From assembly GCF_008386395.1 (NCBI RefSeq), contig NZ_CP043761.1, positions 4,154,001 through 4,218,000 on the forward strand: 64,000 nucleotides of DNA, in the 5' to 3' direction. Below the pieces are notes generated by a model. The model did not search any database. It saw only the letters and a list, made by a program, of their open reading frames with translations, and was not told where the DNA came from. The stretch comes from Paenibacillus sp. 37. GTDB lineage: Bacteria; Bacillota; Bacilli; Paenibacillales; Paenibacillaceae. The position numbers were made by a program, and so were the translations under genes. Below, one piece after another: positions 1 to 19,138 of this stretch. Numbering within the stretch: position 1 is the stretch's first letter; each line of letters opens with the position of its first letter.

Positions 1-1554
1 CATGTAATACCCTGTTACACCCATAAGAATGGCTATAATCATCTCCCACCAGCGTACATATTGTTTGTTATACACCTCAAGTTTCTGCATAATGCGCGTG
101 ATGGTCTCATTCTGGGCATCATGGTCTAACTGAACTGGAGATAACTGCTGTAATGCTTTGGAGACTTCTTCGTATGTAGCTCCTCGGTTCATTTCTACAC
201 TTGCCAACACGGATTGATCTAACGCTGTTTTTTCCTCAGCTTTCCTGAGATCCGCTTCAGCCATTGCACCAAACATTCGATCATCTCGGATCGGATCATA
301 CAAGATGTGGTTCCGTTCAACCTGGTGCAACAGCAAGATGCAACCCATTGTAAGGACCAAACAACCTGCGAATAACATCACTCGTCGAATGGCAAACCAT
401 TCGTATTTCAACTCTGAGCTGCTCTCCCTCATGAGCCGTATCGTTTGACTGTACTGTGCACTGCCAGGTTTCGCTGCAAACAACATCGCCAATTTCCGTA
501 TGAAGGTCTGCCTGTACAGAAACTGATCCAACCATGAATGCTTATGCCCTGACCGGTAAGGTGTCTCATCGTATTGCTGGAGCCTTTGCAGAAGCAAATA
601 AGCAAGGATGATGATGACATAGATTGATATTTTGGTAATAAAACCAATTTTGCTGCGATAAAATTCATCCATCGTTGGAAAACTGACTCTGGCCCAGCGT
701 TCGATCGGAGCGGTGAATAATACCGGAGCGAGCGCGATGATATTAAGTCCTTTGAGCAGGTAATCCAATTTATCACGCCGCAAAATCTCCAGATGAATCT
801 CCTGAGTCAGGTTACCCAGTCCTTTAAGATAAATAGAGCCTTGTGCTCTGTCCTTATCCCCAAACTCCATGACCATATAGGAAACGCCGGCGAATCCTTT
901 GAGAAAACGGTTGGGAGCCACTTCATAATAACGCTCAAGTGCTTCATTCGGATCTGGAGAAGTTAGAGCTTCGTAGATCAGTCTTACTTGTTCTGCTGCT
1001 TCTCCCGTACCTGCTTCAGCGGCTTCATAGAGCGCTTCCTCAACCATGCCATGCTGGTGATACCGATGCCTTACATCTGCAAAGAGATCCAACATCTGCA
1101 CCAGCAACCTTTTTTCCATACGACTGAGGCACATATCCAATACCAGGCTGTTTAGTACCACAGCACAGAGTACGGAAAGTATTACAAAAGCGATACCCGG
1201 CTGCAGAAGAAACAGAATGACACTTATGCCTCCATAACCTCCAAGAATAATCAGAACCACTGTCATCGTCAGCCTGCGAAGTGAAGGCTCATCCCCAACA
1301 TGGCGGAATGAAATACGTTTCTGCACCTGTAGAATATAAGCTGATAGCAGTGGCACTTTCATTCCAAGACGGTAGGACTGCAACAAGATTGATCCCAGTC
1401 CCTTAAATCCCTTCCCGCTAGGAGCAAAAATCACGCCGGATTGACTTGTTGAACCACCTCCTCTATGACGTAACATACTTAAAACCAGAAGTGTGATCAG
1501 CAAACCTCCTGCACAAATACTTAATACGAGGAGCAAAATCCATTTAATTGTCAT
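1..1554 (-). CDS. TadB/TadC-like type II secretion F-family membrane protein (partial, 3' end outside window)
   Basis: The minus-strand frame is open from the ATG at 1554 to the window edge (518 codons, no stop), so the C-terminus is missing. Hydrophobic segments lie near residues 3-32, 97-137, 266-280, 306-322, 390-410 and 503-518. Between them, around residues 150-180, is an amphipathic stretch (LLVQMLDLFADVRHRY...) resembling the cytoplasmic T2SSF domain of TadB/TadC platform proteins. The start overlaps the end of the TadA-like gene by 11 bases, indicating translational coupling. In Tad/Flp systems this protein is the inner-membrane platform on which the ATPase acts. It is longer than a single TadB or TadC (about 300 residues), so it may combine both. 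The family call rests on hydropathy, that motif and the neighbours. Confidence 0.65.
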   Translation of the reverse strand, partial: MTIKWILLLVLSICAGGLLITLLVLSMLRHRGGGSTSQSGVIFAPSGKGFKGLGSILLQSYRLGMKVPLLSAYILQVQKRISFRHVGDEPSLRRLTMTVVLIILGGYGGISVILFLLQPGIAFVILSVLCAVVLNSLVLDMCLSRMEKRLLVQMLDLFADVRHRYHQHGMVEEALYEAAEAGTGEAAEQVRLIYEALTSPDPNEALERYYEVAPNRFLKGFAGVSYMVMEFGDKDRAQGSIYLKGLGNLTQEIHLEILRRDKLDYLLKGLNIIALAPVLFTAPIERWARVSFPTMDEFYRSKIGFITKISIYVIIILAYLLLQRLQQYDETPYRSGHKHSWLDQFLYRQTFIRKLAMLFAAKPGSAQYSQTIRLMRESSSELKYEWFAIRRVMLFAGCLVLTMGCILLLHQVERNHILYDPIRDDRMFGAMAEADLRKAEEKTALDQSVLASVEMNRGATYEEVSKALQQLSPVQLDHDAQNETITRIMQKLEVYNKQYVRWWEMIIAILMGVTGYYM

Positions 1555-3370
1555 GCTGATCACCCCAGTGTTGCTTCATAAACTGTTCAAACTTCTCGGC
1601 ATCCTGTAATGTCATCTGTTCTCGCATATCCACCATGCTTCCAGAGGAGATTGGAGCTGTTGCAACATACTCTCCATCTCTGTACTCCACAACATTATGA
1701 AATGTAAAACCTGCCCTCTCTTCCACGCTATCACCTTGATTCGCACGAGGAAGACACTCCGTAATTCGTTCGATATATCTTCGTCCCTCAGCATCTTTCT
1801 TCATATGAACATCAAAGTTAATTACACTCACAACCTGCTCCTCAGCAATATGCTCATGCTGGAACATACCTGTCTTGAGCAAGGAATTACGGAGGGAGAA
1901 GACCAGATCACGAAACGTTTTGGCATGGTGGGTAAACAGGGTGAACAGACTGGCAACCTGAGACATTTGAATCATCCATGCGGCCACCTCATCACTCGCA
2001 ACTTCACCGAGAATATTGACGGTACCATCCGTTTTTTTCTGCAAATCAAGCCCTTGTTGACCTGAAATGTGTTCAGTCTCTCGGAAACTCAAAATATTAC
2101 GTCGGCTATAGATCCGTCTTAATTGAAGTTCAAACGCCATCTCCTGCACCCGAAGGGTGTACGATGCATAGATGTGTTTGACCATAGCCATAAGCAGCGT
2201 CGTTTTGCCAGAACCCTGTGCTCCGGTTACAGCTGTGATCCGACTTCCTTTCATCAAATATTGAAGCAATATAATTGGCAGATCTGCGTTGTTACCCGTA
2301 ATCAACTGTTCAAGTGAAGCATTCGGGATATCGAACTTCCTAACGAAGAACGCCCACGATTCTGCGAAAGGAGGTCTAACAACTACGACACGGGAGCCGT
2401 CTTTCATCTCGTTCACCTTGTAGCCACTTGCTTCCGACAACTGTCCGGGATAATTGTATTTGTATATATTCTGGCATACCCTTTTCAGTTCACGAATACT
2501 GCCGAAGGACAGAAAGGATAGATGAATGGACTTACCTTTATAGAAAATCCAGACACTTTCCATGCCGCTAAGCGGTTCTACATGTGTAGCATCCTCCAGT
2601 CCCTGATCCAGCAAATCATTCCATGATGCCGGTTTTCGAAGTCCCATATTATGAACAGCATCAAGCATACCGCTAACACCACCACTAACGCCGTCAATAC
2701 GTTGGTCCCTTATCTCATCAACAACCGAGAATCCTTTATAATGCTGATAGATACGTTGCACGATGATATCCGTCTTTTCTCTGAATCCAAGCTCTCGATA
2801 TTCGCACTCGAAAACATAGTGAATGTCTTCCTCGGAAATATAATAACTCCCTCCGTCCTCCGTACCTTCCTCCATTCTCAGCCTTCCCAGATCGTAGGTA
2901 TCAATCATTCGGGAGAGTGCATCCACACCGAATTGCTGTCGGTACAGATAAAACACAATTTCGAATCGGTCCTGAATCGTCAACAAATCTGGTTCTGCAA
3001 ACAAAATAACTTCATCTACATTGGATTTGTTCAGCCCTATGCTTCGGGTCAGGAGATCCCCTATCAGATTTTTGACATACGTTTTGTCGCTGATACTGCC
3101 TGAGACACAGCCCTTCAGTGCTTTTCTCATCTCGGCACGTTGATTAATTCTTCGACGATATTCTTCTTCATGCAGACCCGCATCCGCGAGCTGACTATGA
3201 CTAAGCTCATGAAGTGAGTTCTTCACCTTCTCAATCAACATGTCAATCGTGAAAGATTCCTGTTCAGGAACACGAGCATTCTTTTCACGAAGAAACGTTC
3301 TATACTTGAACCAGATATAAGTCAGGCACAGAATCAAAATCAAACTTATCCATATGGTATTCCAGAGCAT
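1544..3370 (-). CDS. TadA/CpaF-like secretion ATPase with N-terminal membrane anchor
   Basis: 608 residues. The C-terminal half is a VirB11/TadA-type ATPase: Walker A GAQGSGKTTLL near residue 390, an acidic Walker B-like ILGEV near 455, and a His-box THHAKT near 485. It would power assembly or secretion of a Tad/Flp-type pilus. Two points are odd. Residues 3-20 form a clear transmembrane segment, whereas TadA/CpaF proteins are normally soluble. The usual RGGEA-like stretch after Walker B reads ASDEVAAW. The start lies 7 bases after the stop of the CpaE-like gene, and the 3' end overlaps the platform gene. Assignment to the TadA superfamily is firm; the substrate is unknown. Confidence 0.8.
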   Translation of the reverse strand: MLWNTIWISLILILCLTYIWFKYRTFLREKNARVPEQESFTIDMLIEKVKNSLHELSHSQLADAGLHEEEYRRRINQRAEMRKALKGCVSGSISDKTYVKNLIGDLLTRSIGLNKSNVDEVILFAEPDLLTIQDRFEIVFYLYRQQFGVDALSRMIDTYDLGRLRMEEGTEDGGSYYISEEDIHYVFECEYRELGFREKTDIIVQRIYQHYKGFSVVDEIRDQRIDGVSGGVSGMLDAVHNMGLRKPASWNDLLDQGLEDATHVEPLSGMESVWIFYKGKSIHLSFLSFGSIRELKRVCQNIYKYNYPGQLSEASGYKVNEMKDGSRVVVVRPPFAESWAFFVRKFDIPNASLEQLITGNNADLPIILLQYLMKGSRITAVTGAQGSGKTTLLMAMVKHIYASYTLRVQEMAFELQLRRIYSRRNILSFRETEHISGQQGLDLQKKTDGTVNILGEVASDEVAAWMIQMSQVASLFTLFTHHAKTFRDLVFSLRNSLLKTGMFQHEHIAEEQVVSVINFDVHMKKDAEGRRYIERITECLPRANQGDSVEERAGFTFHNVVEYRDGEYVATAPISSGSMVDMREQMTLQDAEKFEQFMKQHWGDQHDN

Positions 3371-3377
3371 CGGAGGT

Positions 3378-4208
3378 TCAGGCTCCCCTTTCCAGCCTCT
3401 TCAGAACTGTGCGCATACCTGCACCGTCCATAATCAGGCGAGCGAGTTCGCTCATGCTTGCAGCAAAACTCCCTTTACGAATATCCTTATCCTCAGTCAA
3501 ACTTTCCAACTGCAAATATCTAGCAACATCTCGCCGATTCATTGCATCCAGGTATCCGGTTGTGTACGGTATCGCAGATATCGTGCCTTTGTATCTGAAC
3601 TGGCGCCGAATATTGGAAAGCGTTGCACGGGAATGCAAATCGTATTTGTTAATTACAACATGTATATTCTTATTGTTCATTCGTTCTGGCAGGATCTCTT
3701 CAAAGAACAACTCCAGATTTCGCATATTTTGATCGAGATTAATGACAACATAGTCCGCTTGTTGCAGCTTGAGCTGTGAGTCAACACCAGCATGATCCGC
3801 ATCCAGAAGAACCAGATCATAATACTCGTTAGCTACATTTAGCAGCTTTTTCACAGTCTCACCATGTTCCTGCGGGGAACGTTCCATCTCATCAGTTCTT
3901 CCGGTTAGGAAATCAAGTCTTTCCTTCAGAAGTGGCTTGGTATAATCCCTGAGATTGTGCTTATTCAGACTTCCGCTCGAATGCAGCCGTTCAATCGCAT
4001 CCCAGCCACCCTCTTCGAAGGAGAACATAAAATCCTCTGAATCCGTATCTTTGGACGGTAGAGCAGCTTCTGTGCCAGTTCCGGCGAGGCCTGCATTAAC
4101 AAGTAACACTCTTGTCCTGTAGTGAAGCGCCATCGCATAAGCACTAATTAATGTGCTCGAAGTGCAACCTGTTCCTGCAAAAGGGCTCCAAAAGGTAATG
4201 GTGCTCAT
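3378..4208 (-). CDS. CpaE/MinD-like protein with degenerate P-loop
   Basis: 276 residues from the ATG at 4208, which overlaps the stop of the upstream gene as ATGA. A longer in-frame start at 4289 exists but would lie inside the upstream gene. The N-terminus (TFWSPFAGTGCTSST) sits where the deviant Walker A of ParA/MinD proteins (KGGxGKT) should be, but both lysines are absent. The rest follows the MinD fold: LLVNAG strand, YDLVLLDAD near residue 140, YVVINLDQN, and VVINKYD in the position of the guanine-specificity-like strand. CpaE proteins direct placement of Tad pilus machinery, so a localisation or scaffold role is inferred. Loss of the P-loop suggests it does not hydrolyse ATP in the usual way. 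Confidence 0.65.
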   Translation of the reverse strand: MSTITFWSPFAGTGCTSSTLISAYAMALHYRTRVLLVNAGLAGTGTEAALPSKDTDSEDFMFSFEEGGWDAIERLHSSGSLNKHNLRDYTKPLLKERLDFLTGRTDEMERSPQEHGETVKKLLNVANEYYDLVLLDADHAGVDSQLKLQQADYVVINLDQNMRNLELFFEEILPERMNNKNIHVVINKYDLHSRATLSNIRRQFRYKGTISAIPYTTGYLDAMNRRDVARYLQLESLTEDKDIRKGSFAASMSELARLIMDGAGMRTVLKRLERGA

Positions 4209-4918
4209 GCTCTCATCCTCTCTGCTTCTTTCATCGCACGGCGACTGCGAACACTTTCCCAACCTGTTAACTGCTCGACCACGCGACACAACGAATTTTT
4301 GTAATTTCGTGACAAAGGTCCAAGATGAACTCGGCGATGATGCTCATTCTCAAGCTTAACCGCAGCTGTTAACTCATCCCACGGAAGCACTAAGGATTCT
4401 CCTGTCCATACAAACGGACTGCCCTCCAGATACGCCCACAGATAACGAGCTTCAAGCTTGCAGTCAACCCCGTTAATTAAGATCCGCTGAAATGACAGCT
4501 CACCAGGTAATGATTGTTCTTCAAGCAACCGCTTCAACCAGCCCTTGCCACGTTCCAGATTGTAACGCTCATAATCACTCACCCAGACTCTTACATCAGC
4601 ATTCAGCCAGAGATTACGGGAAGCAAAGTGTGAGGTCTCCATGTCATATAACACATAGTCATAACTGTCTAATCGCTCTCCATTTACTTCAAGATGATTC
4701 TCTACAGCTGCTGAAGTGACAAAATGACAAGCGATATCAAATCCTTCAAATTCCGTAATTCGCAAAGACTGCTTACTGTCACCTACACCGTACCCATACT
4801 TCTGTTGTAAGGTTCCATCTACGAGCAAGACCTTGTTGCCTGTCGAAGCCAATATCTTGCATAGATATAACATCAGATCATTTTTCTCACATAAACCCGC
4901 AAAGATCCATGTATGCAT
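4205..4918 (-). CDS. Second CpaE/MinD-like protein lacking a P-loop
   Basis: 237 residues. The N-terminal strand (MHTWIFAGL) is followed by CEKNDLMLYLCKIL, so no Walker A glycine-lysine motif remains. The next strand, KVLLVDGTLQQKYGYG, and YDYVLYDMETS near residue 90 match the second and third conserved strands of MinD/ParA folds. It ends with EAERMRA and its stop overlaps the next CpaE-like start by four bases, so the two are translationally coupled and may pair as a pseudo-ATPase heterodimer (inference). No signal peptide or membrane segment. The function is unproven; context places it in Tad-type machinery. Confidence 0.55.
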   Translation of the reverse strand: MHTWIFAGLCEKNDLMLYLCKILASTGNKVLLVDGTLQQKYGYGVGDSKQSLRITEFEGFDIACHFVTSAAVENHLEVNGERLDSYDYVLYDMETSHFASRNLWLNADVRVWVSDYERYNLERGKGWLKRLLEEQSLPGELSFQRILINGVDCKLEARYLWAYLEGSPFVWTGESLVLPWDELTAAVKLENEHHRRVHLGPLSRNYKNSLCRVVEQLTGWESVRSRRAMKEAERMRA

Positions 4919-4993
4919 AGATGTTACAACTCCTTTCTTATTCCAAAACTCCTTGTTATCTGAATTATTCTAAAGTAAACCTCGGATTTCGCT

Positions 4994-6013
4994 CTATTCT
5001 CCACCCGTTAGCAAGCGCTGCTGTTCTGTTTGTAAAGCTTCAGCAGGATCATTTATGCTTCCAGAATTAGCTCCTGCTCCGTTTCCTGAACCATCATTCC
5101 ACATCACTCCATCCGACGTTGCCGGATTATTTGATGATGGACGACTGTTATATGTAACTGAGGATTGTGCCACATCCTGTTCAACCCCTTTTGATGGTGC
5201 TGTCATGGAGGCGGCCAGTGAACTTTCAAGCGAACTTCGCACCTGTCTGGATAACTCCTGCTCGGCTCGTCGAACAATATTCGGATCACTCTCCAGCAGT
5301 TTTAATACTTCTGAATTGGCAGGATACGTCGCGATTGCAGGTGTCTGAAACTGTGGTTCTACATAGGTTAAGGCATAGATTGAAGCTTTATGTAAATAGG
5401 CATCTACAATTGCACTTGAGAGTGACAGAATCTCTTCCTCCGTCATCGTAATCCATAAGGTAGCTGCATTAAGTCGTTCCACTTTTTTCTTCGATAAGAG
5501 AACATAGTCCTGTCCGGTAGGGAATTGGATACGAACATCAATAATATCTCCCTTAACAAGGGAGGACGGCAGTAATACAACTTGCAGCTCTCGATTTCTT
5601 AAATCGGGCGGAGCCGGTGTATCCTCATACACCATCTCAGTGGTAATGGCTGTTCCTTTTTTTAACTCTATTTTGGCCACTTGGCCTTCCATCTGCTTAG
5701 TACTGGACCAGAGATTTCGCGGTGCTTGTGCATCCGGAACAGCAATGAGCTTCAGATCCTCCGGTAATATCGGTTCACCTGCTTCAATATCCCGAATCGT
5801 AATCCATCCTTGTGCTCCCGAATCCCATTGTTGCTTTAATTCAGCTTCCTTTTCCTCATATGCCGATAAATAACGGGCTTCTACGGCTGACTTGACATCA
5901 CTCATCGTTTTGACATTGTAGATAACATATCCTCCGAACACCAACCCTACAGCTCCTGCTCCGATAAGTCCGGCATAGATCAGTTGACGGCTTTGTTTTC
6001 TTAATTTAGACAA
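4994..6013 (-). CDS. CpaB/SAF-domain protein, Tad-type assembly
   Basis: 339 residues. An N-terminal transmembrane segment (about residues 11-30, LIYAGLIGAGAVGLVFGGYV) follows a basic start. Next comes a coiled stretch, then a SAF-like domain with WITIRDIEAGEPILPEDL near residue 70 and KKGTAITTEMVY near 118. This arrangement is that of CpaB/RcpC, which in Gram-negative bacteria stabilises the Tad outer-membrane pore. In a Gram-positive host it would work at the outer face of the membrane. The C-terminal 70 residues are rich in Ser, Asn and Gly and look disordered. It lies between the kinase and the CpaE-like genes on one transcript. Confidence 0.7.
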   Translation of the reverse strand: MSKLRKQSRQLIYAGLIGAGAVGLVFGGYVIYNVKTMSDVKSAVEARYLSAYEEKEAELKQQWDSGAQGWITIRDIEAGEPILPEDLKLIAVPDAQAPRNLWSSTKQMEGQVAKIELKKGTAITTEMVYEDTPAPPDLRNRELQVVLLPSSLVKGDIIDVRIQFPTGQDYVLLSKKKVERLNAATLWITMTEEEILSLSSAIVDAYLHKASIYALTYVEPQFQTPAIATYPANSEVLKLLESDPNIVRRAEQELSRQVRSSLESSLAASMTAPSKGVEQDVAQSSVTYNSRPSSNNPATSDGVMWNDGSGNGAGANSGSINDPAEALQTEQQRLLTGGE

Positions 6014-6039
6014 AAGAGGCTCTCCTTTCGTAATCTCTT

Positions 6040-7518
6040 CTAATCATGTACTTTCCTTCGTGAAAAGAACGAACGTTTCTTGGGCTGCTGTGCCATCATG
6101 TGCGTTAAAATATGAGAAAACACTTTATCCATCTGTGCGTCCTTGTCAAAAGGGTCAATATGTAACGGCAGCCCATATACACTCGATGTATCCAGAGCTT
6201 TCCGAATGCGCTGAACTGCTTCACTTGCTGCCAGAGGCAGACAATATATCCATTTCTCTCGTGGATACCGATGATGTGTTCGAACAAAAGCACCAATCTC
6301 CGCCTGTCTCCATTCGGCACCTGAGCCTATAACAATAGGCAGATCTGCACGCAGGAATTCTTCAAGCCGGTTCTGGTCCTGACCACTACCAAGATCCATC
6401 ACGATGAATTGATAACTCCCCCCAAGCAAAGACAAAATATCCGCTCGCCCGGATTGTTTCCAATAATGCACACCATCCACTGCAAACTGTCTGCCTGCTG
6501 GCACCGGTTTACCCGCTTGAGCGATTTGTTGAATCCTTGCAAAGGATTGAGAGCGAGGTGACATTTCTATCACAGCTACTTTGAAGTTTTGCCTTTCGAG
6601 ATAATGACTGATAGCTATAGCCGTGTGGGTAACCCCTACACCAGATGAAGCACCAGTCAGGGCAATAACTCTTGTTCCCCCATTCAATGTCATCGTTGCA
6701 TCTCCACCGGGCATTGTTCCGCCGGGTATTCGGAGCAGTTCCTTCCTTACCTCATCGGCAGATTGGAATCGCTCCTCGGCATTATACCTTAACAGTCTTC
6801 TCGCCACAGGGATGTATGTCCTCGGAACATCACTCCGGATAGAGCTTTCTACACCCTGAATCCATTCCGTATACGCCCCACTTGTCATAAGATACAGCAG
6901 CAATGCTCCGAGTCCATATAGATCTGAACGCGCATCGGTCTGACCCGAGCCATATTGTTCTGGAGCGGCAAAACCAACGGTTCCCAACTTAACGGTATCT
7001 TCAGCATTGTGCGGTTTGTAACTTCTGGCGATGCCAAAATCAATTAATCTTACTTCATGTTCCGGGGTGATCATGATATTTGATGGTTTCAGATCCCTAT
7101 AGATCACAGGTGGATTCAGATTATGCAAATAACTCAACACATCCAGCAATTGAAGTACAAGCTCAGTCAATTGCTCCATCGGGATCTTCCCACGACACTG
7201 CTTGAAATACTCACTGAGCGTTAACCCGTCGATGTATTCCATCACCAAGTATGTGTACCCGTCTTCATCCGGGACAAAAAAATCAACAATTTGCGGCAAT
7301 CTTGGATGGCAAAGTGATGTCAGAAGAGCGGCTTCCGTCTCCATACTGCCTTCATATGGCATAATCGTTACGCTTTCTTTAATTGCCCATATCTTGCCCG
7401 GCAACTTCAGATCCTCCGCCTCGTATACATGGCTCATTCCGCCTGTTCCCAGAATGGATACGATACGATATCTACCTCCCAGCAGGCTTCCGCGTTCCAG
7501 CCTGGCCGGATGTCTCAT
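6040..7518 (-). CDS. Hanks-type Ser/Thr kinase fused to a MinD/CpaE-like domain
   Basis: 492 residues. ATG 7518 is chosen because GAAGGAGG lies 7 bases upstream; a TTG in frame at 7545 lies in the terminator T-run and lacks a ribosome site. Residues about 16-275 are a complete protein kinase: glycine loop LGTGGMSHVY, AIKE lysine, YRDLKPSN catalytic loop, DFGIAR and APEQYG. From about 282 a second domain begins with VIALTGASSGVGVTHTA, followed by FKVAVIEM and FIVMDLGSG, the strand pattern of MinD/CpaE proteins with a P-loop that lacks the lysine. It ends in a basic tail (KKRSFFSRRK). There is no membrane segment and no PASTA domain, unlike PrkC. It is the first gene of the Tad-like operon and probably its regulator (inference). 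Confidence 0.8.
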   Translation of the reverse strand: MRHPARLERGSLLGGRYRIVSILGTGGMSHVYEAEDLKLPGKIWAIKESVTIMPYEGSMETEAALLTSLCHPRLPQIVDFFVPDEDGYTYLVMEYIDGLTLSEYFKQCRGKIPMEQLTELVLQLLDVLSYLHNLNPPVIYRDLKPSNIMITPEHEVRLIDFGIARSYKPHNAEDTVKLGTVGFAAPEQYGSGQTDARSDLYGLGALLLYLMTSGAYTEWIQGVESSIRSDVPRTYIPVARRLLRYNAEERFQSADEVRKELLRIPGGTMPGGDATMTLNGGTRVIALTGASSGVGVTHTAIAISHYLERQNFKVAVIEMSPRSQSFARIQQIAQAGKPVPAGRQFAVDGVHYWKQSGRADILSLLGGSYQFIVMDLGSGQDQNRLEEFLRADLPIVIGSGAEWRQAEIGAFVRTHHRYPREKWIYCLPLAASEAVQRIRKALDTSSVYGLPLHIDPFDKDAQMDKVFSHILTHMMAQQPKKRSFFSRRKVHD

Positions 7519-7543
7519 ACCAATTCCTCCTTCAATACACAAC

Positions 7544-7614
7544 AAAAAAGGGAAAGCTTCACCGAAGAAGAACAGACCGGATATCCGGTTTCGTTCACTT
7601 CGGGATGCTTTCCC
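7544..7614 (-). terminator. Long terminator-like hairpin in the kinase 5' leader
   Basis: On the minus strand GGGAAAGC (7607-7614) pairs with GCTTTCCC (7550-7557). CCGAAG/CTTCGG, GAAC/GTTC and a perfect inner palindrome ACCGGATATCCGGT extend the stem, and six T residues follow (7544-7549). It could end transcription of the upstream methyltransferase operon. Because the promoter at 7644-7673 lies upstream of it, it may also act as an attenuator for the kinase operon. Confidence 0.7.
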
Positions 7615-7643
7615 TCAGGTTTGTTATGGTTAATATTGGTATC

Positions 7644-7673
7644 ATTATAGTACAGGCAGGAATAGATTGTAAA
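7644..7673 (-). promoter_or_regulatory. Sigma-A-type promoter of the Tad-like operon
   Basis: On the minus strand TTTACA (7668-7673), an 18-base spacer and a perfect TATAAT (7644-7649). Transcription would start near 7637, giving a leader of about 120 bases before the kinase ATG. Confidence 0.7.
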
Positions 7674-7744
7674 GCACAAAATTTAATGTGCTTTATCGAA
7701 TCAATTTCATAATACCCTAACTGCTTTAATCAAGGCTAGATCTC

Positions 7745-8794
7745 TTAATATTTGACCATATAAAGTGTAATCTCTTCCCGGTTATGGAACAACTGCTTGG
7801 AACGTTGAATCTGCATCCGCGAACGCTCAAACGTATCGATAACATCCTTAATAAGTGCGAGCGGTTTTTTATGCAATAACTTCACGGTAACAATCGCTGT
7901 TCCCCCAGGCTGAAGGCTATATAGAAGATCCGACACAAGTCGGCTCATCAGCTTCGGACTCCAACTCATATCACATACGAGCAGATCGAACTCTCCTTCG
8001 CGGAAGCGCACATCCCCTGCATTTTTCTTCAAAAAAGTTAGTTTTGGTGATGCCAGCAGCGTTGCGTCCATCTTCGCCGGATCTACCGCCGTTACTTCAA
8101 GCCCACGTTCAAGCAGGAAGGAGGTCCATCCACCTGGTGCTGCACCGATATCAAGTGCCTTATGAAATGAAGTAAAGTCAATGCCAAACGTTTGCTCGGC
8201 TTCAAGCAATTTGAACTTAGCACGCGAGATCTGCCCATCTTCTTTTTGAAAACGTACGGCTCCCCCGCTCCAGTCTGACAGGTTCTGTTCAGGTCTGGAT
8301 ATGCCAGCATACAACATATCATTCGCAGCAAATACAGAAATGACATATTCAGCATCACGTACAACCCACTCACAGCCTAGCTCATCCAGCTTTTCAGTTA
8401 GCAGTTGCTTCAATGAGGCTGCATTTTCTTGCCAAAAGGACCCTTCTGTCTTCCGCACCTGCAGCACGACAGGGGTACCGGTCAGTTCCTTATGATTCAA
8501 CACAAATGCAATCAATTTCTCAATAGACTTCTCCGAATCTTCTGTATTCTCCTGAAACTGAACAGGTTGAATATGACGTAAAAACGTTGGATACTCTGCC
8601 CACAGCTTATCTGCAACTTCTTCCTCCGCTACAGGCAGACCCGCAAGCAGTATTTCTCCTGGTACGAGTACCGTGCTCTTCACCGCTCCAAACGTACGGC
8701 GCAACTCTTCCTGAGCATAAGGGGCAAAGCCATGATTGGCCGTGCAGATAAAACGGGAGAAGTTGCCTTCTTCCCAAGACGATTGTGTACTCAA
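7745..8794 (-). CDS. FtsJ/RlmM-like SAM-dependent RNA methyltransferase
   Basis: 349 residues from a TTG start at 8794, supported by GGAGGG nine bases upstream, which overlaps the stop of the ABC gene. The C-terminal half has a Rossmann methyltransferase core with SAM motif I LDIGAAPGGWTSF near residue 210, VDPAKM, and FDLLVCDMSW near 265, followed by IVTVKLLHKKP. This is the RrmJ/RlmM arrangement, so 2'-O-methylation of rRNA is the likely reaction. The N-terminal 190 residues resemble the THUMP-like region of RlmM-type enzymes only loosely. It is the last gene of the operon, followed by the leader/terminator at 7544-7614. Confidence 0.7.
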   Translation of the reverse strand: MSTQSSWEEGNFSRFICTANHGFAPYAQEELRRTFGAVKSTVLVPGEILLAGLPVAEEEVADKLWAEYPTFLRHIQPVQFQENTEDSEKSIEKLIAFVLNHKELTGTPVVLQVRKTEGSFWQENAASLKQLLTEKLDELGCEWVVRDAEYVISVFAANDMLYAGISRPEQNLSDWSGGAVRFQKEDGQISRAKFKLLEAEQTFGIDFTSFHKALDIGAAPGGWTSFLLERGLEVTAVDPAKMDATLLASPKLTFLKKNAGDVRFREGEFDLLVCDMSWSPKLMSRLVSDLLYSLQPGGTAIVTVKLLHKKPLALIKDVIDTFERSRMQIQRSKQLFHNREEITLYMVKY

Positions 8795-8800
8795 ATTGTG

Positions 8801-9580
8801 TTACCCTCCAGAACGTACGCGTATCCACGGACGACCATTATCCCACTGGATATCGACCGGAACATCGTACGTATGCTTAATTGTATCTTGTGTCAAAACT
8901 TCATACTTGGGGCCAGCTGCCGCGATACGTCCATCGCGGATCAAGGCCACATGCGTAAATAAAGGTACGATCTCTTCAACATGATGTGTTACATACACAA
9001 CTGTAATGTTACGCTGGCGCAGACGATCAATCTCAGCCAGCATTTTCTCACGTTCATATAAGTCTAGTCCGGCACAAGGCTCGTCCATAATCAGCAATTT
9101 GGGCTCAACCATTAATGAACGAGCAAGCATGACTTTTTTGCGCTCCCCTTGGGATAACGTTCCAAGCGGGTTGTTGGCCAAGTTGGCAAAGCCCATGTCA
9201 TCTAACAAACTCATTGCCTTTGCTTTTACTTCATCAGGAATTGTCTGATAAAAACGCAAAAAAGCATAAGCTCCTGTAGCGACGACTTCCCATACCGGAT
9301 CTCTGGGTGTGAGTTTCTCAATCAACGTTTGGCTGATATAACCGATTTCCTTACGTACTTCCCTGACGTCACATTGCCCATACAGATTACCGAGTACTTC
9401 AATACGTCCCTGGCTTGGAAACATATATCCATTCATCATCTCCAACAACGTTGTTTTGCCAGAACCATTCCGACCCAGAATAACCCAATGTTCGCCTTGT
9501 TCAATGTGCAAATGTACGTTATCCAAAATCTGATTCTCTTCTCGTCTAAGTGAGACATGTTCCATCGAGATTATACTCAT
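8801..9580 (-). CDS. ABC transporter ATP-binding protein (YlmA-like)
   Basis: 259 residues. Walker A GRNGSGKTTL near residue 38, Q-loop region GYISQTL, signature LSQGERKKV near 143, Walker B LLIMDEPCAGLD, and the switch histidine in VTHHVEEI. This is a stand-alone ATPase with no permease gene beside it, like B. subtilis YlmA and E. coli ModF-type proteins. The start overlaps the thioredoxin-like gene by four bases (ATGA), and its stop is part of the ribosome site of the methyltransferase gene. The partner and substrate cannot be told from sequence. Confidence 0.85.
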   Translation of the reverse strand: MSIISMEHVSLRREENQILDNVHLHIEQGEHWVILGRNGSGKTTLLEMMNGYMFPSQGRIEVLGNLYGQCDVREVRKEIGYISQTLIEKLTPRDPVWEVVATGAYAFLRFYQTIPDEVKAKAMSLLDDMGFANLANNPLGTLSQGERKKVMLARSLMVEPKLLIMDEPCAGLDLYEREKMLAEIDRLRQRNITVVYVTHHVEEIVPLFTHVALIRDGRIAAAGPKYEVLTQDTIKHTYDVPVDIQWDNGRPWIRVRSGG

Positions 9581-9894
9581 TTCAGCACCACCTTCCGGAT
9601 CTCCGAGAGCAAATGCTCCACAGAGCTCATCCGATAAACCATTTTTGGAACATCTTGTTGGCCATCAAAAAGCATCACTGCTGGAACGCTTGAAATTTGA
9701 AATTGTTGTACAAGTTCAGGAATATCATGAATGTTCATTTCAGATAAAATACCTTCTGGCAGCATGTGCTCAACGACCTCTAACATACGCCGTGCTGCCG
9801 CACATGTCCCACATAAAGGGGTATATATAAATACAGCCTGTGGCATGCCTTCCCATACACTACGCATTAACATTTTGGATGTAATTGGCTTCAT
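9577..9894 (-). CDS. Small thioredoxin-like protein
   Basis: 105 residues with a thioredoxin fold pattern: strand AVFIYTPLCGTCAAAR carrying a CGTC active-site pair near residue 28, and the cis-proline region SSVPAVMLF near 70. CGTC differs from the usual CGPC, so the redox potential may differ. No signal peptide, hence cytoplasmic. The ATG shares a base with the stop of the upstream receiver-like gene (TAATG), and the 3' end overlaps the ABC ATPase. Similar small proteins (YdbP type) are widespread in Bacillales. The partner is unknown. Confidence 0.75.
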   Translation of the reverse strand: MKPITSKMLMRSVWEGMPQAVFIYTPLCGTCAAARRMLEVVEHMLPEGILSEMNIHDIPELVQQFQISSVPAVMLFDGQQDVPKMVYRMSSVEHLLSEIRKVVLK

Positions 9895-10232
9895 TAACTT
9901 TCTTCTCCCGCAGCAACACGCAGCATGACCTCACCCGTCATTGGTCCATTATGAATGGTTACCGAATCCGGTTTATTGCTATATAACACCTCGTACATCT
10001 GGCGTTTCCCAAACATACTGGACGTATGCAAATAGATCTCGCGCGGAAATAAACCTTCTCGTACAATAGATGCCGCGACCTCACCGCCATTGGGCGAATC
10101 TGGACCAAGCTCATAATCCAGAGACAAAATGTCCACGTCACCTTCTCTTAGCAGCATCAGGCACTCTTCTGCATTCGTTGCCAGAACAAAACCTTTCGGA
10201 CATGCCCGATAGTCATCCAAAAAAACATGCAT
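9894..10232 (-). CDS. Receiver-like protein (cyclic-phosphate processing cREC_REC type)
   Basis: 112 residues. It begins MHVFLDDYRACP, where LDD holds the acidic pair of a receiver fold, followed by DILSLDYELGP near residue 38 (the phospho-acceptor-like Asp) and IYLHTSS near 70. The early DD and LDYELG pattern matches the stand-alone cREC_REC family, which occurs in contexts of cyclic nucleotide or 2',3'-cyclic phosphate metabolism. No output domain. GGAGAGGAG precedes the ATG. It sits between endonuclease IV and the thioredoxin-like gene in one operon, so a link with nucleic acid repair or processing is possible but unproven. Confidence 0.6.
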   Translation of the reverse strand: MHVFLDDYRACPKGFVLATNAEECLMLLREGDVDILSLDYELGPDSPNGGEVAASIVREGLFPREIYLHTSSMFGKRQMYEVLYSNKPDSVTIHNGPMTGEVMLRVAAGEES

Positions 10233-10251
10233 ACAATCGCTCCTCTCCCCA

Positions 10252-11100
10252 TTATAGCCAGGAACGCATGAGCGCTATATCATCACGGTGCGTTCCATCT
10301 TCGCCCGTTTCTGTCTCGAGCACAACAACCGCATTTTGGAACTCAGGCGCCTTTAACAATGCTTTCATTGATTCATTTCCTATATATCCCTGTCCGATCC
10401 TTGCATGTCTATCCTTAGACAAACCAGATGCATATTTGGAATCATTAAAATGTATAGCAGCAACATTATCCCAATATCCGAGCATCCTGCCCTTATCGAG
10501 CATCGCCGCTTCGTTTCCTGACGACCACAAACCTGAAGCAAAAGCATGGCATGTGTCAAAACAAAAAGCAATATGCTCCGGATATCGGCTTAATTTGCGA
10601 ATCTGTATCATTTCTTCCATTGTCGTGCCCATGGGGCCATGATCACCTGCCTGATTCTCAAGCAGCACCTTCGAATGACCATTCCAATTCTCCAAGGCGG
10701 TATCCAGACAATGAATGAGGTTCTGATAACCCTCCAACGGATCGTTTGTTTTGATATGTCCAAAATGGACCACCGTCCCAACGGAACCGCAAGCATTCGA
10801 AATTTCAAGATCATTGCGAATAGAAGCTATTGTGGCATGAAACCCCGCCTCTCCACGGGTCATGCCCAACGCCGGATTCGTGGGATAGGGTGAATGGGCA
10901 ATCGAAGCAAGTCCATGCTGTTCACACCAATCCCTGCACTGCTCAGCATCCTTGAGGTCCAGACTTTTCAGGCTGAGACTACGCGGGTTCTTCGGAAAAT
11001 ACTGAAACGCCGTAGCCCCCATCGCATGTGCTCTTTTGGCTGCCTGAAGAAATCCACCTCTGGTGCTGACATGTGCCCCAATTCCGGTTTTAGGCTTCAT
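10252..11100 (-). CDS. nfo: Endonuclease IV (AP endonuclease)
   Basis: 282 residues from the ATG at 11100; longer in-frame starts lie inside the glycosylase gene. The TIM-barrel metal ligands are visible: GAHVSTRGG near residue 8, IAHSPYPTNPA, VHFGH near 115, LLENQAG near 150, CFDTCHAFA near 185, HFNDSK, HARIGQGYIG near 240 and VLETETGEDG at the end. The enzyme cuts DNA 5' to abasic sites. Its gene overlaps the Fpg-type glycosylase gene by 11 bases, so a glycosylase that makes abasic sites and the endonuclease that processes them are co-translated. Confidence 0.93.
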   Translation of the reverse strand: MKPKTGIGAHVSTRGGFLQAAKRAHAMGATAFQYFPKNPRSLSLKSLDLKDAEQCRDWCEQHGLASIAHSPYPTNPALGMTRGEAGFHATIASIRNDLEISNACGSVGTVVHFGHIKTNDPLEGYQNLIHCLDTALENWNGHSKVLLENQAGDHGPMGTTMEEMIQIRKLSRYPEHIAFCFDTCHAFASGLWSSGNEAAMLDKGRMLGYWDNVAAIHFNDSKYASGLSKDRHARIGQGYIGNESMKALLKAPEFQNAVVVLETETGEDGTHRDDIALMRSWL

Positions 11101-11911
11101 GCTGGCATTTCGGACAGAAGAATGCCTTCTTGCCCGTAATTTCCACTCGTTCAATTGTTCCCCCGCAGCGCGGACAAGTCTCGCCTTCCCGATCGTATAC
11201 GCGACATTGCTCGTCAAAACTTCCTGTCTTCGTATCCCCTTGCATCAGTGGCATTTCCATATAGCCACCCTCAGAAGCTGCTTCACGCAACACGGACTGC
11301 ATCGAATGGAACAAGCGCTCCGTCAACTCTGGTGAAGTCGCGATGTTCTGCGTTTTAGAGCTTGGTCTCAGGCCGGCAGCAAAAGCAATCTCATCCGAAT
11401 AACAGTTGCCAATTCCTGCAATGATATGCTGGTTTACCAATGTTGTCTTAAGTGTACCCCGACGACCTTTCAACAAAGAAGCAAAACGTTCCACGTTCAT
11501 CCGTCGATCCAAAGGTTCAGGTCCAAGATCAGACATCGCCTCTTCGGTTTCTTTCGAAGTAAGCAGATGTAAATAACCCAAGCGCAGACCAATGAAGAAC
11601 AAAATGTGATCGCCAAACTGGATTTCCACTTGTGTGGAACGATCAGGGCGTTCCTCTTCCGTGCCCCAGAAAATCATACCGCCCAACATGAGGTGCAGCA
11701 CCAGACGTTTGCCATTAGCCAAGTGGAAAATCAGATGCTTCGCGCGGCGCTCAACAAATATGATGCGATTACCTGTAAGTTCATTGATGAACAGATCAGG
11801 CTCCGTATTTATCGTTTTATCGCGGTTAATTACAACACCTGTAATCAGTAGATCAAGTATTTCCTCGGACAGCAAGGTCCGGTAATTTTCCATTTCCGGC
11901 AGTTCCGGCAT
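11090..11911 (-). CDS. mutM: Formamidopyrimidine-DNA glycosylase family (Fpg/Nei)
   Basis: 273 residues. The N-terminus PELPEMENYR gives the catalytic Pro2 and Glu3 after Met removal. RRAKHLIFHL near residue 56 holds the conserved Lys, and the helix-two-turn-helix NQHIIAGIGNCYSDEI lies near 165. A C-terminal zinc finger, CPRCGG...FFCPKCQ, completes the family. It removes oxidised bases such as 8-oxoguanine or FapyG. The M at position 7 (PELPEM instead of PELPEV) and TLLSEEI mark a subgroup distinct from the Fpg next to polA in Bacillus, so substrate choice is uncertain. Start ATG follows AAAGGGG that overlaps the stop of the phosphatase gene. Confidence 0.9.
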   Translation of the reverse strand: MPELPEMENYRTLLSEEILDLLITGVVINRDKTINTEPDLFINELTGNRIIFVERRAKHLIFHLANGKRLVLHLMLGGMIFWGTEEERPDRSTQVEIQFGDHILFFIGLRLGYLHLLTSKETEEAMSDLGPEPLDRRMNVERFASLLKGRRGTLKTTLVNQHIIAGIGNCYSDEIAFAAGLRPSSKTQNIATSPELTERLFHSMQSVLREAASEGGYMEMPLMQGDTKTGSFDEQCRVYDREGETCPRCGGTIERVEITGKKAFFCPKCQHEA

Positions 11912-11917
11912 CGTACA

Positions 11918-12727
11918 TTACCCCTTTTTGGAAGCTTGGTCTGCCTCTTGCGACAGCCACTCCATCAATTTATGCAAATCTTCAAACACATGATCAGGTC
12001 GAGCCTTCGCTGCTTGAATGTGTCCATCCATATTATCCCGGGTTGTCACACCGGTAAGTACCAACAGCGTCTCACAACCTGCTGCCACTCCAGCTGCAAT
12101 ATCGGTTCGCATATTATCTCCGATCACTGCCACTTCATGAGACGCCAGGTTTAGCCGGCTAATGGCCGACTTCATTATAACACTCGATGGCTTGCCTATG
12201 ACTGTAGGATGGACTCCGGTCGCGGCTTCAATTGCTGCTCCAATAGTCCCCGCTCCAGGTGTCAGTCCATCATCGGAAGGAAGCTGCAGATCCGGGTTGG
12301 TCATGATGAATTTTGATCCCGCATTAATCCACCTTAGCGCCTTGGTCAGTTTATGATAGGAAAATTCACGATCAATCCCCTGTATCACGTAATCTGGTGC
12401 ATCTTCCGTCAGCTGAAGTCCTGCTTCTTCTATGGCTTCCAGCAGTCCTGCTTCTCCAATACATGCCACTTTTGCACCCGGGGACTCTTCAGCAACATAT
12501 TCAGCAGCCGCCACAGCAGAAGTACATACTTGAGACGCGTCGGCAGGTATGCCCATCCCGTTCAAATGATCTGCCACACCTTGTGGTGTACGGGAAGAAT
12601 TATTTGTTACGAATAAATACGGCTTTCCTAGCTCTTGCAGTGTTCGAATAAGCTGATCGGCTCCTTCGATACGATGTCTGCCATGATAGAGCGTACCATC
12701 CAAGTCAATCAGATAGGCCTTAATCAC
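11918..12727 (-). CDS. HAD phosphatase, NagD/YutF type
   Basis: 269 residues from GTG 12727, with GAAAGGAAG six bases upstream; an in-frame GTG at 12736 has no spacing from that site. Motif I is LIDLDGTLYHG, motif II FVTNNSSR near residue 40, a lysine in IGKPSSV near 180, and motif III VIGDNMRTDIAAG near 205. The class IIA cap lies between. The match to B. subtilis YutF (TIGR01457 type) is good. YutF-like enzymes dephosphorylate small phosphorylated metabolites. First gene of the repair-linked operon; its stop lies six bases before the glycosylase start. Confidence 0.85.
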   Translation of the reverse strand: MIKAYLIDLDGTLYHGRHRIEGADQLIRTLQELGKPYLFVTNNSSRTPQGVADHLNGMGIPADASQVCTSAVAAAEYVAEESPGAKVACIGEAGLLEAIEEAGLQLTEDAPDYVIQGIDREFSYHKLTKALRWINAGSKFIMTNPDLQLPSDDGLTPGAGTIGAAIEAATGVHPTVIGKPSSVIMKSAISRLNLASHEVAVIGDNMRTDIAAGVAAGCETLLVLTGVTTRDNMDGHIQAAKARPDHVFEDLHKLMEWLSQEADQASKKG

Positions 12728-13083
12728 ACACAGCACTTCCTTTCTTCATTCCATTAACGTTTCATGTCCTTAATCATTTACCTCGAACTTGAACGCGAAC
12801 CTATGTATTCAGGCAAAAAATAATGGCTTGCTGGCATATGCACGCAACAAGTCGAACCGGATCGAACACCGACGGTTTAACTCGCGCGTCTTCTGTACAA
12901 GCTTGTCATTTCCTGCGCTTTCCCGGAAAATAATTTGAATCATTTCCCTCTTCATATTGCCCATCCTACACGCTTTCTGGCCAGATTGCAAAAGGGACCG
13001 CGGGAGTTCCTCTCCCTCAGTCCCGTGCAATTACCCGGATCTTTATATGACGTGTTTAACCGTGAACTGGTTCGCAATCAGGG
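12728..13083. other. Intergenic gap upstream of the phosphatase operon
   Basis: Apart from the possible small frame at 12809-12955 nothing is clear. No strong intrinsic terminator is seen after rnz, so read-through into the phosphatase operon is possible. Confidence 0.4.
12809..12955 (-). CDS. Possible small protein of 48 residues
   Basis: A short frame, MKREMIQIIFRESAGNDKL then VQKTRELNRRCSIRFDLLR, lies in the 350-base gap between RNase Z and the phosphatase operon. AGGATG sits about eight bases before the ATG at 12955. The composition is protein-like (mixed charges, amphipathic). I do not recognise the family; it could be chance. Confidence 0.3.
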   Translation of the reverse strand: MKREMIQIIFRESAGNDKLVQKTRELNRRCSIRFDLLRAYASKPLFFA

Positions 13084-14022
13084 TTAAGATTCTTGCTTGC
13101 GATGCACGACAGGAATAAGCTGGTGTTCGTTTGCAAGTCTGGTATTCGGGAATACGGACTGCGCCTCTTCCAAAAGTGGCTGAAGTTGATCCTCATCCTT
13201 ATAGCGTGAACTGAAGTGAGTCATGATTAGTTGCCCTACATTGGCTGCTCTAGCCGCTTCTGCCGCTTGTTTAGATGTACTATGATAGTACTCATGCGCT
13301 GTATCAGCCAAGTCATGCATGAATGTAGCTTCATGCACAAGTACATCTGCATTGATGGAAAGTGGCTGTACGTTGTCACATGGACGTGTATCACCCAATA
13401 TGGTGATAACCATGCCTCGTTTTGGCGCTCCCAATACATCTTCTGGACGAAGCGAATCACCGTTATCCAGCGTAATGGTTTCTCCACGTTTCAGCCGGCC
13501 GAACAATGGGCCTGGTTTCAAACCGTATTCCGCCAGTTTGGCTGGGTCCAGGCTTCCTGGACGATCTTTTTCCGTAATCCGGTATCCATAGCTGTCAATC
13601 CGATGCTCAAGCAAAGCAGCTTCCACGATAAAACTGTCATCCTCGAACAGGACGCCGCCCGTATGTTCCACGATATTCAAATCATAGTTAACCCGGGATT
13701 GGCTAAGCTCCATTGTTGTACTGATCATTCGTTCCGTACCTGGCGGACCATATACGGTTAATGGTGTGGTGCCACCTTGATAGGCTCTGCTTGAAAGCAG
13801 TCCTGGAAGTCCAAATACATGATCACCATGCAGGTGAGTAATGAATATTTTCTCCAATTTACTTAGTTTAAGCGGAGAACTTAATATCTGGTGCTGCGTT
13901 CCTTCCCCGCAGTCAAACAACCACAAAGCTCTGCGCTCATCCAACATGCGTAGCCCAATGGAAGTTACATTCCGTTGAAGCGTAGGTACACCAGCATTAG
14001 TTCCCAGGAAATATAGTTCCAT
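13084..14022 (-). CDS. rnz: Ribonuclease Z
   Basis: 312 residues from ATG 14022, preceded by AGAGGTG nine bases upstream; an upstream in-frame start at 14067 overlaps the metH terminator region and is rejected. MELYFLGTNAGVPT is the typical N-terminus. The zinc motif FITHLHGDHVFGLPG is near residue 60, ILGDTRPCDN near 205, VHEATFMHD near 225, and MTHFSSRY near 270. It removes the 3' trailer of tRNA precursors lacking encoded CCA. The exosite arm GYRITEKDRPG is present, as expected for a full-length bacterial enzyme. Confidence 0.95.
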   Translation of the reverse strand: MELYFLGTNAGVPTLQRNVTSIGLRMLDERRALWLFDCGEGTQHQILSSPLKLSKLEKIFITHLHGDHVFGLPGLLSSRAYQGGTTPLTVYGPPGTERMISTTMELSQSRVNYDLNIVEHTGGVLFEDDSFIVEAALLEHRIDSYGYRITEKDRPGSLDPAKLAEYGLKPGPLFGRLKRGETITLDNGDSLRPEDVLGAPKRGMVITILGDTRPCDNVQPLSINADVLVHEATFMHDLADTAHEYYHSTSKQAAEAARAANVGQLIMTHFSSRYKDEDQLQPLLEEAQSVFPNTRLANEHQLIPVVHRKQES

Positions 14023-14051
14023 TCTGGATCGCACCTCTTTCTGTTGCCAGC

Positions 14052-14075
14052 AAAAAACCTCCGACAATGCGGAGG
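14052..14075 (-). terminator. metH terminator
   Basis: On the minus strand CCTCCG, a six-base loop, CGGAGG and then six T residues, 25 bases after the metH stop. Confidence 0.85.
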
Positions 14076-14099
14076 GCTTTGCCTGACACTCTACTGAAT

Positions 14100-17540: not shown

Positions 17541-17657
17541 TATCTTCACCCCCGCAAAACGTTAGATCTTAGTTTAACAGAAACTAACTTAATGTGAAAG
17601 ATCGGGTTTGGTCCCGAAACATGGCGGGTTTGCGCGAATATGAACGGAATTTGAGAA

Positions 17658-17686
17658 TCGACAAAAACAAAGCAATCCGATATAAT
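17658..17686 (+). promoter_or_regulatory. mtnD promoter
   Basis: TCGACA (17658-17663), 17-base spacer, perfect TATAAT (17681-17686); 34 bases before the mtnD ATG. Confidence 0.75.
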
Positions 17687-17719
17687 TCAATTAAACCAAG
17701 TGGAAAAGAGGGAAAGAAC

Positions 17720-18265
17720 ATGGCTGAAATTGTTATCCGAAATACGAACGAACGCATCACTGGTGACGAAAATGTTCGAAATTTCTTGAACAAATACGAA
17801 GTATTATATGAGAAGTGGGACGCTTCCAAACTGAACACTGATCTGCAAAATAACTTTGGATTAACTGATGAACAGAAAACCGAGGTTTTGGAAACTTACG
17901 ATTACGAAATCAGAGATTTGGCTGCACGTCGCGGGTACCAGATCTGGGATGTCATCACGCTGTCCGAACAAACACCCGATATCGAAGAAAAGCTGGCCAA
18001 GTTCGAAGAGATCCACACCCACGCTGAAGATGAGATCCGTGCAATTGTCGCTGGTAAAGGAATCTTTGTTATCAAAGCTACAGATGATGTGGGCTACTTT
18101 AATGTAGAACTGTCTCCTGGAGACGTTATCTCTGTACCTGAGAATACACCGCACTTCTTCACTTTAATGGAGAACAAACAAATAATTGCTGTACGTCTGT
18201 TCATCGAAAAAGATGGCTGGATTGCAGATCCATACCCTGATCCTACTTTTATCAAACAAGCCTAA
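17720..18265 (+). CDS. mtnD: Acireductone dioxygenase
   Basis: 181 residues from ATG 17720, just after AGAGGGAAAG; upstream in-frame ATGs lie before the promoter and are rejected. Cupin fold with the metal motif HTHAEDEIRAIVAG near residue 103 (two His and one Glu) and the second His in ENTPHFFTL near 147. The enzyme oxidises 1,2-dihydroxy-3-keto-5-methylthiopentene in the methionine salvage pathway. It is transcribed from its own promoter away from metH, so methionine synthesis and salvage genes share a divergent intergenic region. The other mtn genes are not nearby. Confidence 0.93.
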   Translation: MAEIVIRNTNERITGDENVRNFLNKYEVLYEKWDASKLNTDLQNNFGLTDEQKTEVLETYDYEIRDLAARRGYQIWDVITLSEQTPDIEEKLAKFEEIHTHAEDEIRAIVAGKGIFVIKATDDVGYFNVELSPGDVISVPENTPHFFTLMENKQIIAVRLFIEKDGWIADPYPDPTFIKQA

Positions 18266-18292
18266 CACTCTCGTGTTACAACTTGCTTAACC

Positions 18293-18322: not shown

Positions 18323-18361
18323 CGCTTATTCATATGGAGAGTAGTATACAACATCGGTGCA

Positions 18362-19120: not shown

Positions 19121-19138
19121 TGGCCAGCATCAACTATA

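Follow-up and report, generated by a model that had tools for sequence, protein, structure and literature searches.

The window analyzed here, a stretch of 64,000 nucleotides of Paenibacillus sp. 37 corresponding to positions 4,154,001-4,218,000 of the larger of the two contigs (NZ_CP043761.1) of a 7.6-Mb genome, starts inside a minus-strand operon of ten closely packed genes, with intergenic gaps of -20 to 75 bp. The head gene joins a Ser/Thr (Hanks) kinase to a MinD-like domain in a single protein and is followed, after 26 bp, by the gene for a CpaB-like SAF-domain protein and then by those for the proteins E1 and E2, a TadA/CpaF-like ATPase, a membrane protein and, at the left end of the operon, four small single-transmembrane proteins (p1 to p4), after which an ABC-F gene comes in 138 bp further on (Table 1). 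Hereafter, this Tad-like gene set is called the module.

The head protein matches the Pkinase family with an E of 1.3e-35 and presents the Hanks kinase signature and the catalytic residues, the window copy containing YRDLKPSN, IDFG and APEQ. Its C-terminal domain proved to have a MinD-like fold in the MinD/ParA/CpaE fold test, so an earlier note on this DNA, made from the letters alone, was right in describing a complete Hanks kinase joined to a domain of MinD/CpaE fold. Among 56 kinase-MinD open reading frames (ORFs), DFG occurs in 56, APEQ in 53, [AV][VI]KE in 52, the strict form [HYF]RDLKP[STA]N in 50 and the exact string GTGGM in 13; four ORFs are devoid of RDLKP, two of them carrying HRDVKPSN and one YRDMKPSN, while the piece from locus L080 did not span the motif. 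The P-loop lysine is absent from all the MinD-like domains aligned (47/47). The conservation in relatives that the note had suggested looking for was found: a fusion match is present in 75 of 75 genomes of the genus of the window, in two of them split over two frames, and the best named homologue among the 7999 candidates scored, those with most shared words, comes from Paenibacillus and is 97% identical over the searched part. In the open-access literature searched, we found no description of the kinase-MinD fusion, of the lone kinase gene or of the link with DUF5704 that are discussed below. A defence system was considered and dropped, the PADLOC matches being to the kinase domain and P-loop only, as was a phage origin, given that the TadA-like protein matches 4 of 50,697 phage records, none covering 80%, and that the PHROGs matches concern only kinase and P-loop.

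The downstream genes support the idea of a Tad-related motor operon with a kinase fusion at its head. Of the labels of the earlier note (CpaB, CpaE, CpaE, TadA and TadB/C), those of E2 and of the TadA-like protein hold, E1 is marginal, the first is kept as CpaB-like, and the membrane protein may be called TadB/TadC-like by its place and topology, not by homology. The ATPase matches TIGR03819 at E 1.2e-9, under the NCBIfam cut-off, and CpaF structures, by profile, at E 2.5e-16, which assigns it to the TadA/CpaF type. Walker A is retained in 95 of 97 TadA-like ORFs of the loci scanned, in 1 of 92 E1 and in 2 of 95 E2. In turn, the CpaB-like protein has a SAF match above the cut-off and a TIGR03177 match of 38.9 bits, the cut-off being 71.

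The same note had placed the prepilin and peptidase genes to the left of the window. When that sequence was read, the operon was seen to end in p1-p4 followed by the ABC-F gene, and neither was found: the locus is flanked by neither a peptidase nor a prepilin of class III, and its genes, when scanned with Pfam, gave no secretin and no WXG100 or EssC-type match. Of the two findings that the note named as refuting its reading, this one was made, whereas the other, a C-terminal domain of a fold unlike MinD, was not. The class III prepilin motif was detected in 0/88 p1, 1/74 p2 (that of L023), 0/92 p3 and 0/89 p4, in a scan that was positive for 3/3 canonical Tad controls of the same genome. Because p1-p4 are free of such motifs, one p2 excepted, the module is not filed as a Tad pilus; by the criteria applied it is not one, though its mode of operation may yet be that of a Tad machine. 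The model of p1, obtained for the L039 copy (99% identical), consists of a 54-residue N-terminal helix and a beta head (pLDDT 83, pTM 0.60). For p1, VIA and Foldseek listed no pilin chain, a result that does not by itself exclude a pilin. Two successive p1-type genes occur in L086 (13951-14949), L102 (15210-15713), L104 (15755-16195) and L106 (15788-16351).

The same genome harbours a canonical Tad locus elsewhere (L008, 8878-19539, that is, first contig 1,626,878-1,637,539), with genes for CpaE-like, CpaF, TadB, TadC, Flp, TadE/F-like and FHA-type proteins and an A24 peptidase; T2SSF and A24 were confirmed and the remaining names were read from the translations. The A24 match is the sole one found in the genome. 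The operon could thus be thought of as an ordinary Tad/Flp pilus operon, its prepilins and peptidase being supplied in trans by that locus, which offers Flp-, TadE- and TadF-like proteins, a T2SSF platform and the peptidase, and its kinase being a dedicated regulator. Canonical-type CpaF occurs in 238 of the 245 Paenibacillaceae genomes sampled, and a sharing of peptidases by filament systems has been described (PMC6668835). Nevertheless, the operon has its own conserved p1-p4 set without cleavage motif, which recurs on plasmids, and the kinase gene persists in genomes devoid of the module, so that we regard this explanation as quite improbable.

Table 1. Features of the operon and its upstream neighbour (window positions, except for p1-p4)
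Feature	Position	Strand	Remarks
Head gene: Ser/Thr (Hanks) kinase and MinD-like domain without P-loop lysine, 492 aa	6040..7518	-	
Kinase domain core	6868..7470	-	Pfam Pkinase match, residues 26-226 of the ORF starting at 7545
MinD-like domain without P-loop lysine	6049..6678	-	
CpaB-like SAF-domain protein, 339 aa	4994..6013	-	SAF match above the cut-off, TIGR03177 match below it
E1: small, marginally MinD-like, 237 aa	4205..4918	-	AAA_31, E 0.017
E2: MinD/CpaE-like, degenerate P-loop, about 276 aa (internal ATG taken as start)	3378..4208	-	
TadA/CpaF-like secretion ATPase, 608 aa, Walker A present	1544..3370	-	
Platform-like membrane protein, truncated by the window edge; full length 691 aa, 8 hydrophobic segments	1..1563	-	TadB/TadC-like by place and topology only
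p1, p2, p3 and p4 (outside the window)	Stretch L005: 16940-17425, 16525-16923, 15977-16528, 15007-15990	all -	
SAM-dependent methyltransferase, upstream neighbour, synteny marker	7745..8794	-	Named after the annotated homologue in L009

One flank of the operon carries the methyltransferase, an ABC transporter and DNA-repair genes, named from annotated relatives in stretch L009, and the opposite one the ABC-F and thiamine genes, named from their translations. A promoter and terminator scan gave a signal no higher than in shuffled sequences.

A complete second copy of the module, with the same gene order, lies on the genome's own 543-kb second contig. Furthermore, the TadA-like protein is covered over at least 80% on 22 plasmid records, and the module order is shared by plasmids of Cohnella, Thermobacillus, Paenibacillus, Alkalihalophilus, Cytobacillus, Sporosarcina, Lysinibacillus and Butyrivibrio. 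Thirteen fetched plasmid stretches and the second copy (L006) were classified, that is, 14 loci. Nine of them (L006, L011, L012 and L019-L024, the heads of L006 and L019 being identical sequences) have a head composed of a receiver-like and a MinD-like part; in L010 (Thermobacillus composti pTHECO01, 6597-11221) such a head is split by an insertion that brings along genes for an integrase and an AAA ATPase, and in L013, L018 and L025 the head gene is absent or unrelated. The MinD-like domains of the ten plasmid-type heads match that of the window with 80-143 bits (E 8e-21 to 1e-43 in a 14-sequence set). A kinase head was found among the plasmid stretches in L009 only, where the kinase gene is frame-broken and chromosomal neighbours are present; at E 1e-60, one of 72,556 plasmid records contains the fusion, and it is this one with the chromosomal neighbours. 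L009 corresponds to NZ_CP013205.1, 83487-100758, labelled plasmid pHD02, and its neighbours are rnz, deoxyribonuclease IV, a glycosylase and the methyltransferase; this record may be a chromosomal piece. Altogether, our preferred reading, to which we grant an even chance, is that the operon of the window belongs to a family of Tad-related envelope machines and would be a version of them fixed in the chromosome and headed by a kinase; other members occur on large plasmids and at further loci of Bacillota, often with conjugation-type genes nearby.

On plasmids, the module frequently keeps company with conjugation-type genes. Nine of the 13 plasmid stretches (L010, L012, L019-L025) have an annotated gene for a replication-relaxation or coupling protein, and six (L010, L012, L020, L022, L024, L025) one for a coupling-type ATPase; replication-relaxation proteins presumably act as relaxases. 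In Butyrivibrio pCY360, some small genes of which genus were missed by the profiles used, the module is followed by coupling protein, PrgI and VirB4 genes, and the Lysinibacillus sphaericus plasmid bears PrgI, DUF87 ATPase, type IV secretion system (T4SS) and peptidoglycan-hydrolase genes at 132-142 kb, with the module at 67-78 kb. Within the genome under study, the coupling-protein family PF02534 is found on the second contig only (replicon C2, at 341,591 and 232,442), and a scan of the genome for this family revealed none alongside the chromosomal copy of the module. The pBsph-like plasmids of L. sphaericus are described as conjugative with a T4SS (PMC13239906) and, judging from resemblance, would carry this module. 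These data are in line with the plasmid modules being mating-pair pili that aid VirB/VirD4 conjugation, the chromosomal copy having been domesticated for cell-cell or surface contact. Against this, four of the 13 stretches (L009, L011, L013, L018) show no annotated transfer gene (even if L009 is of chromosomal type and the PLSDB gene table is incomplete), and MOB-suite typed the plasmids as non-mobilizable; we take this view to be possible, on the unlikely side. A bolder version, which we put forward as a rather unlikely conjecture, would have a peptidase-independent relative of type IV filaments, in which the TadA-type motor assembles uncleaved p1-type subunits and displays DUF5704, serve as a mating-contact organelle of conjugative plasmids, then pass into a Paenibacillaceae chromosome, where a Ser/Thr kinase would have replaced its CpaE-like receiver and, in addition, acquired a separate role.

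The chromosomal forms were classified in the best 80 of at least 476 relatives (named genomes), so that the following figures are not a census. Among these 80 loci, 55 have a kinase head (including L063, whose head lies in two frames), one a receiver-like head, one a MinD-like head alone and 23 are headless; L054 comprises the 3' half of the operon only. In all the 55 kinase-headed loci the fusion directly precedes the CpaB-like gene, and the same methyltransferase stands upstream in 54 of them (the exception is L095) versus 0/25 of the other loci. DUF5704 and its companion gene adjoin two of the kinase-headed loci and not the other 53, while among the headless ones 13 have companion and DUF5704, one the companion and nine neither; these SLH and DUF5704 assignments hinge on score limits, L083 and L107 having weaker matches. 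One of the loci, L078 (Paenibacillus terrigena, 5809-21707), is kinase-headed and lies at the usual chromosomal site, with an SLH-type gene and DUF5704 behind p4; it is possibly an intermediate between mobile and chromosomal forms. L097, from a metagenome-assembled genome (MAG) and included in the counts, has a kinase head, an SLH-type gene and DUF5704, yet its p2 is plasmid-type in look, so it is possibly a chimera.

The fusion gene also exists without the operon. In the family sample of 245 genomes, where positives were set by E 1e-40 for the TadA-like protein and 1e-90 for the fusion, the fusion was found in 125 genomes and 8 of 19 genera, 102 of them with the module and 23 without, these 23 all belonging to one genus. 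In the latter, it always adjoins the same methyltransferase; in 21 of them the ABC-F gene was also present in the sequence fetched, and the 17-19 kb examined contained no module gene scoring above 25 bits. Another four genomes of this genus carry a lone copy at the same site together with a module elsewhere, giving 27 lone loci. All 27 genes possess the kinase and DFG motifs and form one clade (support 1.0, midpoint root). A simple Nei-Gojobori count, restricted to the 91 pairs whose dS was usable (<1.5 in the MinD part), yields a median dN/dS of 0.13 in the kinase and 0.285 in the MinD part, which indicates purifying selection. A single loss of the module, the fusion being kept for another task, would be the simplest reading, the direction depending on a root placed at the midpoint. 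The persistence of the kinase-MinD gene beyond the module makes a further client of the kinase probable, and since the fusion is kept alone in module-less genomes, it is probably not only a regulator of a pilus operon. The canonical Tad system was dropped as a reason for this persistence, because canonical-type CpaF is so widespread in the family that its presence is uninformative.

Taken to its end, this evidence would make the kinase-MinD protein mainly a regulator of the cell envelope or cell cycle, unrelated to the Tad-like machine, with its place at the operon head as a historical accident of fusion. The 27 lone copies at the same site under purifying selection speak in its favour, and so do the 23 lone-gene genomes that are without the module, 22 of which are also without DUF5704. 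However, the plasmid modules have, in their head proteins, a homologue of this MinD-like domain, and both the 26-bp spacing in the window and the constant position of the fusion before the CpaB-like gene tie the protein to the machine; we therefore consider this explanation unlikely.

A candidate for the outward partner of the machine is DUF5704. Eight of the 13 plasmid stretches (L010-L012, L018-L021, L023) and the genome's own second contig have, next to the module, a DUF5704 gene and a companion, defined as a gene annotated with an SLH, copper amine oxidase N-terminal or stalk domain (from which the 'slh' profile was built). In L022 (from 20603) and L024 (from 21317), Cytobacillus and Sporosarcina plasmids, very large surface-type proteins, with leucine-rich repeat or SLH annotation and coding sequences above 8 kb, occupy the DUF5704 position. 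On the chromosome under study, there are two stand-alone pairs of SLH-like companion (named by resemblance) and DUF5704 genes, at L109 8678-13337 and L110 7293-12262, with no Tad-like module gene in the adjoining ORF list. Across the family, DUF5704 is encoded by 130 of 135 module-positive versus 1 of 110 module-negative genomes; when only kinase-positive genomes are considered the figures are 102/102 with the module and 1/23 without, within the genus of the lone kinase 8/8 and 1/23, and DUF5704 is also present in 28 of 33 module-positive genomes without the fusion. On these counts, the distribution of DUF5704, also where it is unlinked, goes with that of the module rather than with the kinase or the genus. 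A surface location is suggested by the N-termini and domains of these proteins; an adhesin role would be a guess.

From these elements a working scheme can be drawn. The TadA-like motor and the polytopic platform-like protein would probably push out or assemble p1-p4, held together by the CpaB-like protein and by MinD-like scaffold proteins mostly without P-loop. The substrates would be the single-transmembrane p1-p4, without prepilin cleavage motif, p1 being predicted to have a long N-terminal helix and a beta head. The outward partner would probably be DUF5704 with its companion, adjoining the module on plasmids and located elsewhere on this chromosome. Most plasmid heads appear CpaE-like, with a receiver-like part before the MinD-like one, and here a motif-intact Ser/Thr kinase would stand in the place of the receiver; for that reason, Thr/Ser phosphorylation probably determines where the machine is placed or how active it is. 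A phospho-control of assembly, as proposed by the earlier note, is possible in this scheme, in which the kinase would probably also attend to a client beyond the operon.

Several observations weigh against membership in such a family or against parts of this scheme. In trees of the TadA-like and platform proteins, the kinase heads do not form one clade in either free tree, and neither the one-clade tree (p-AU 0.58) nor that grouping L078 and L080 with headless loci (p-AU 0.54) is rejected; the kinase heads as a proven single clade were thus given up, since neither free tree recovers it, although the held-together tree is slightly better. The receiver-like label is weak, PF00072 being recognized in 2 of 8 plasmid heads with a best E of 0.035, and no match to the canonical CpaE-like protein was obtained. 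No T2SSF match to the platform protein was obtained among 15 members or by hhalign, one such comparison including 18 of 30 fetched T2SSF stretches, with 12 left out for being on the wrong strand. Moreover, p1 has no significant match in the PDB and its model is moderate, so that calling it pilin-like is a matter of topology. The TadA-like protein is found at E 1e-40 in just 5 of 398 phylum-wide genomes and 2 of 266 genera. As regards DUF5704, five genomes have the module without it (G492, G508, G541, G571 and G618; in four, the TadA-like match is distant, E about 1e-166 to 1e-168) and one, G648, presents the reverse case; the counts concern one bacterial family, are uncorrected for kinship and are trivial where the genes adjoin, and the examination of unlinked DUF5704 genes covered the genome of the window. 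Finally, in Paenibacillus sp. NAIST15-1, the removal of pili-related genes from two loci, one of which may or may not be the present one, is reported to have left motility unaffected (PMC5072692).

Compared with known systems, the locus shares with the Tad/Flp (type IVc) pilus a CpaF/TadA-type ATPase, a CpaB-like SAF protein, CpaE/TadZ-like proteins of MinD fold and a platform-like protein in one operon. It differs from it by having no Flp prepilin, class III motif in p1-p4, peptidase or recognizable T2SSF platform, as well as by the kinase fused to its head protein. Caulobacter CpaE has a receiver-like N-terminus. The likeness to CpaE/TadZ lies in a MinD-like domain placed behind an N-terminal partner, receiver-like, with weak support, in the plasmid heads, whereas here the partner is a motif-intact Hanks kinase and the P-loop lysine is missing throughout; TadZ, for its part, is credited in the literature with a Walker A of atypical form (PMC6668835). 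In P. polymyxa, tadB and tadE have been mentioned as possible Flp pilus genes (PMC8370563).

That Tad-like genes stand beside conjugation genes is already in print. In the Sulfobacillus plasmids pL15 and pY0017 and in a plasmid-like region of S. thermotolerans Kr1, MinD-like, CpaF/TadA-like and TadB/TadC-like proteins are described in one backbone with T4SS proteins (PMC6803676); the likeness is to this published description, which in that passage mentions no kinase. The unusual transfer locus of pXO16, known from a review, was considered as a relative and dropped. Cutibacterium acnes plasmids combine a tad locus with conjugation-like genes, a linkage that the authors leave open (PMC5696575); they resemble the present case as tad plasmids of Gram-positive bacteria and differ in being actinobacterial and in that a putative pilin was, according to that account, detected in the surface fraction. 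Variants of the type VII secretion system (T7SS) such as T7SSc and T7SSd are reported to bear Ser/Thr kinases, and T7SSg/h to adjoin Tad genes (PMC11217815), which is comparable in that Ser/Thr kinases occur in loci for envelope machines of Gram-positive bacteria, with the difference that no WXG100 or EssC-type protein was matched here.

What emerges is that the same MinD-like domain, in the first protein of one operon, can be joined either to a receiver-like domain or to a kinase, the direction of the exchange between the two being suggested rather than observed. The module points to a Tad-like machine that apparently dispenses with prepilin processing, and DUF5704 gains from it a function that can be tested. 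In turn, the lone kinase-MinD genes constitute a natural separation of the kinase from the machine, and a phosphoproteome contrast between the two situations could expose the second client.

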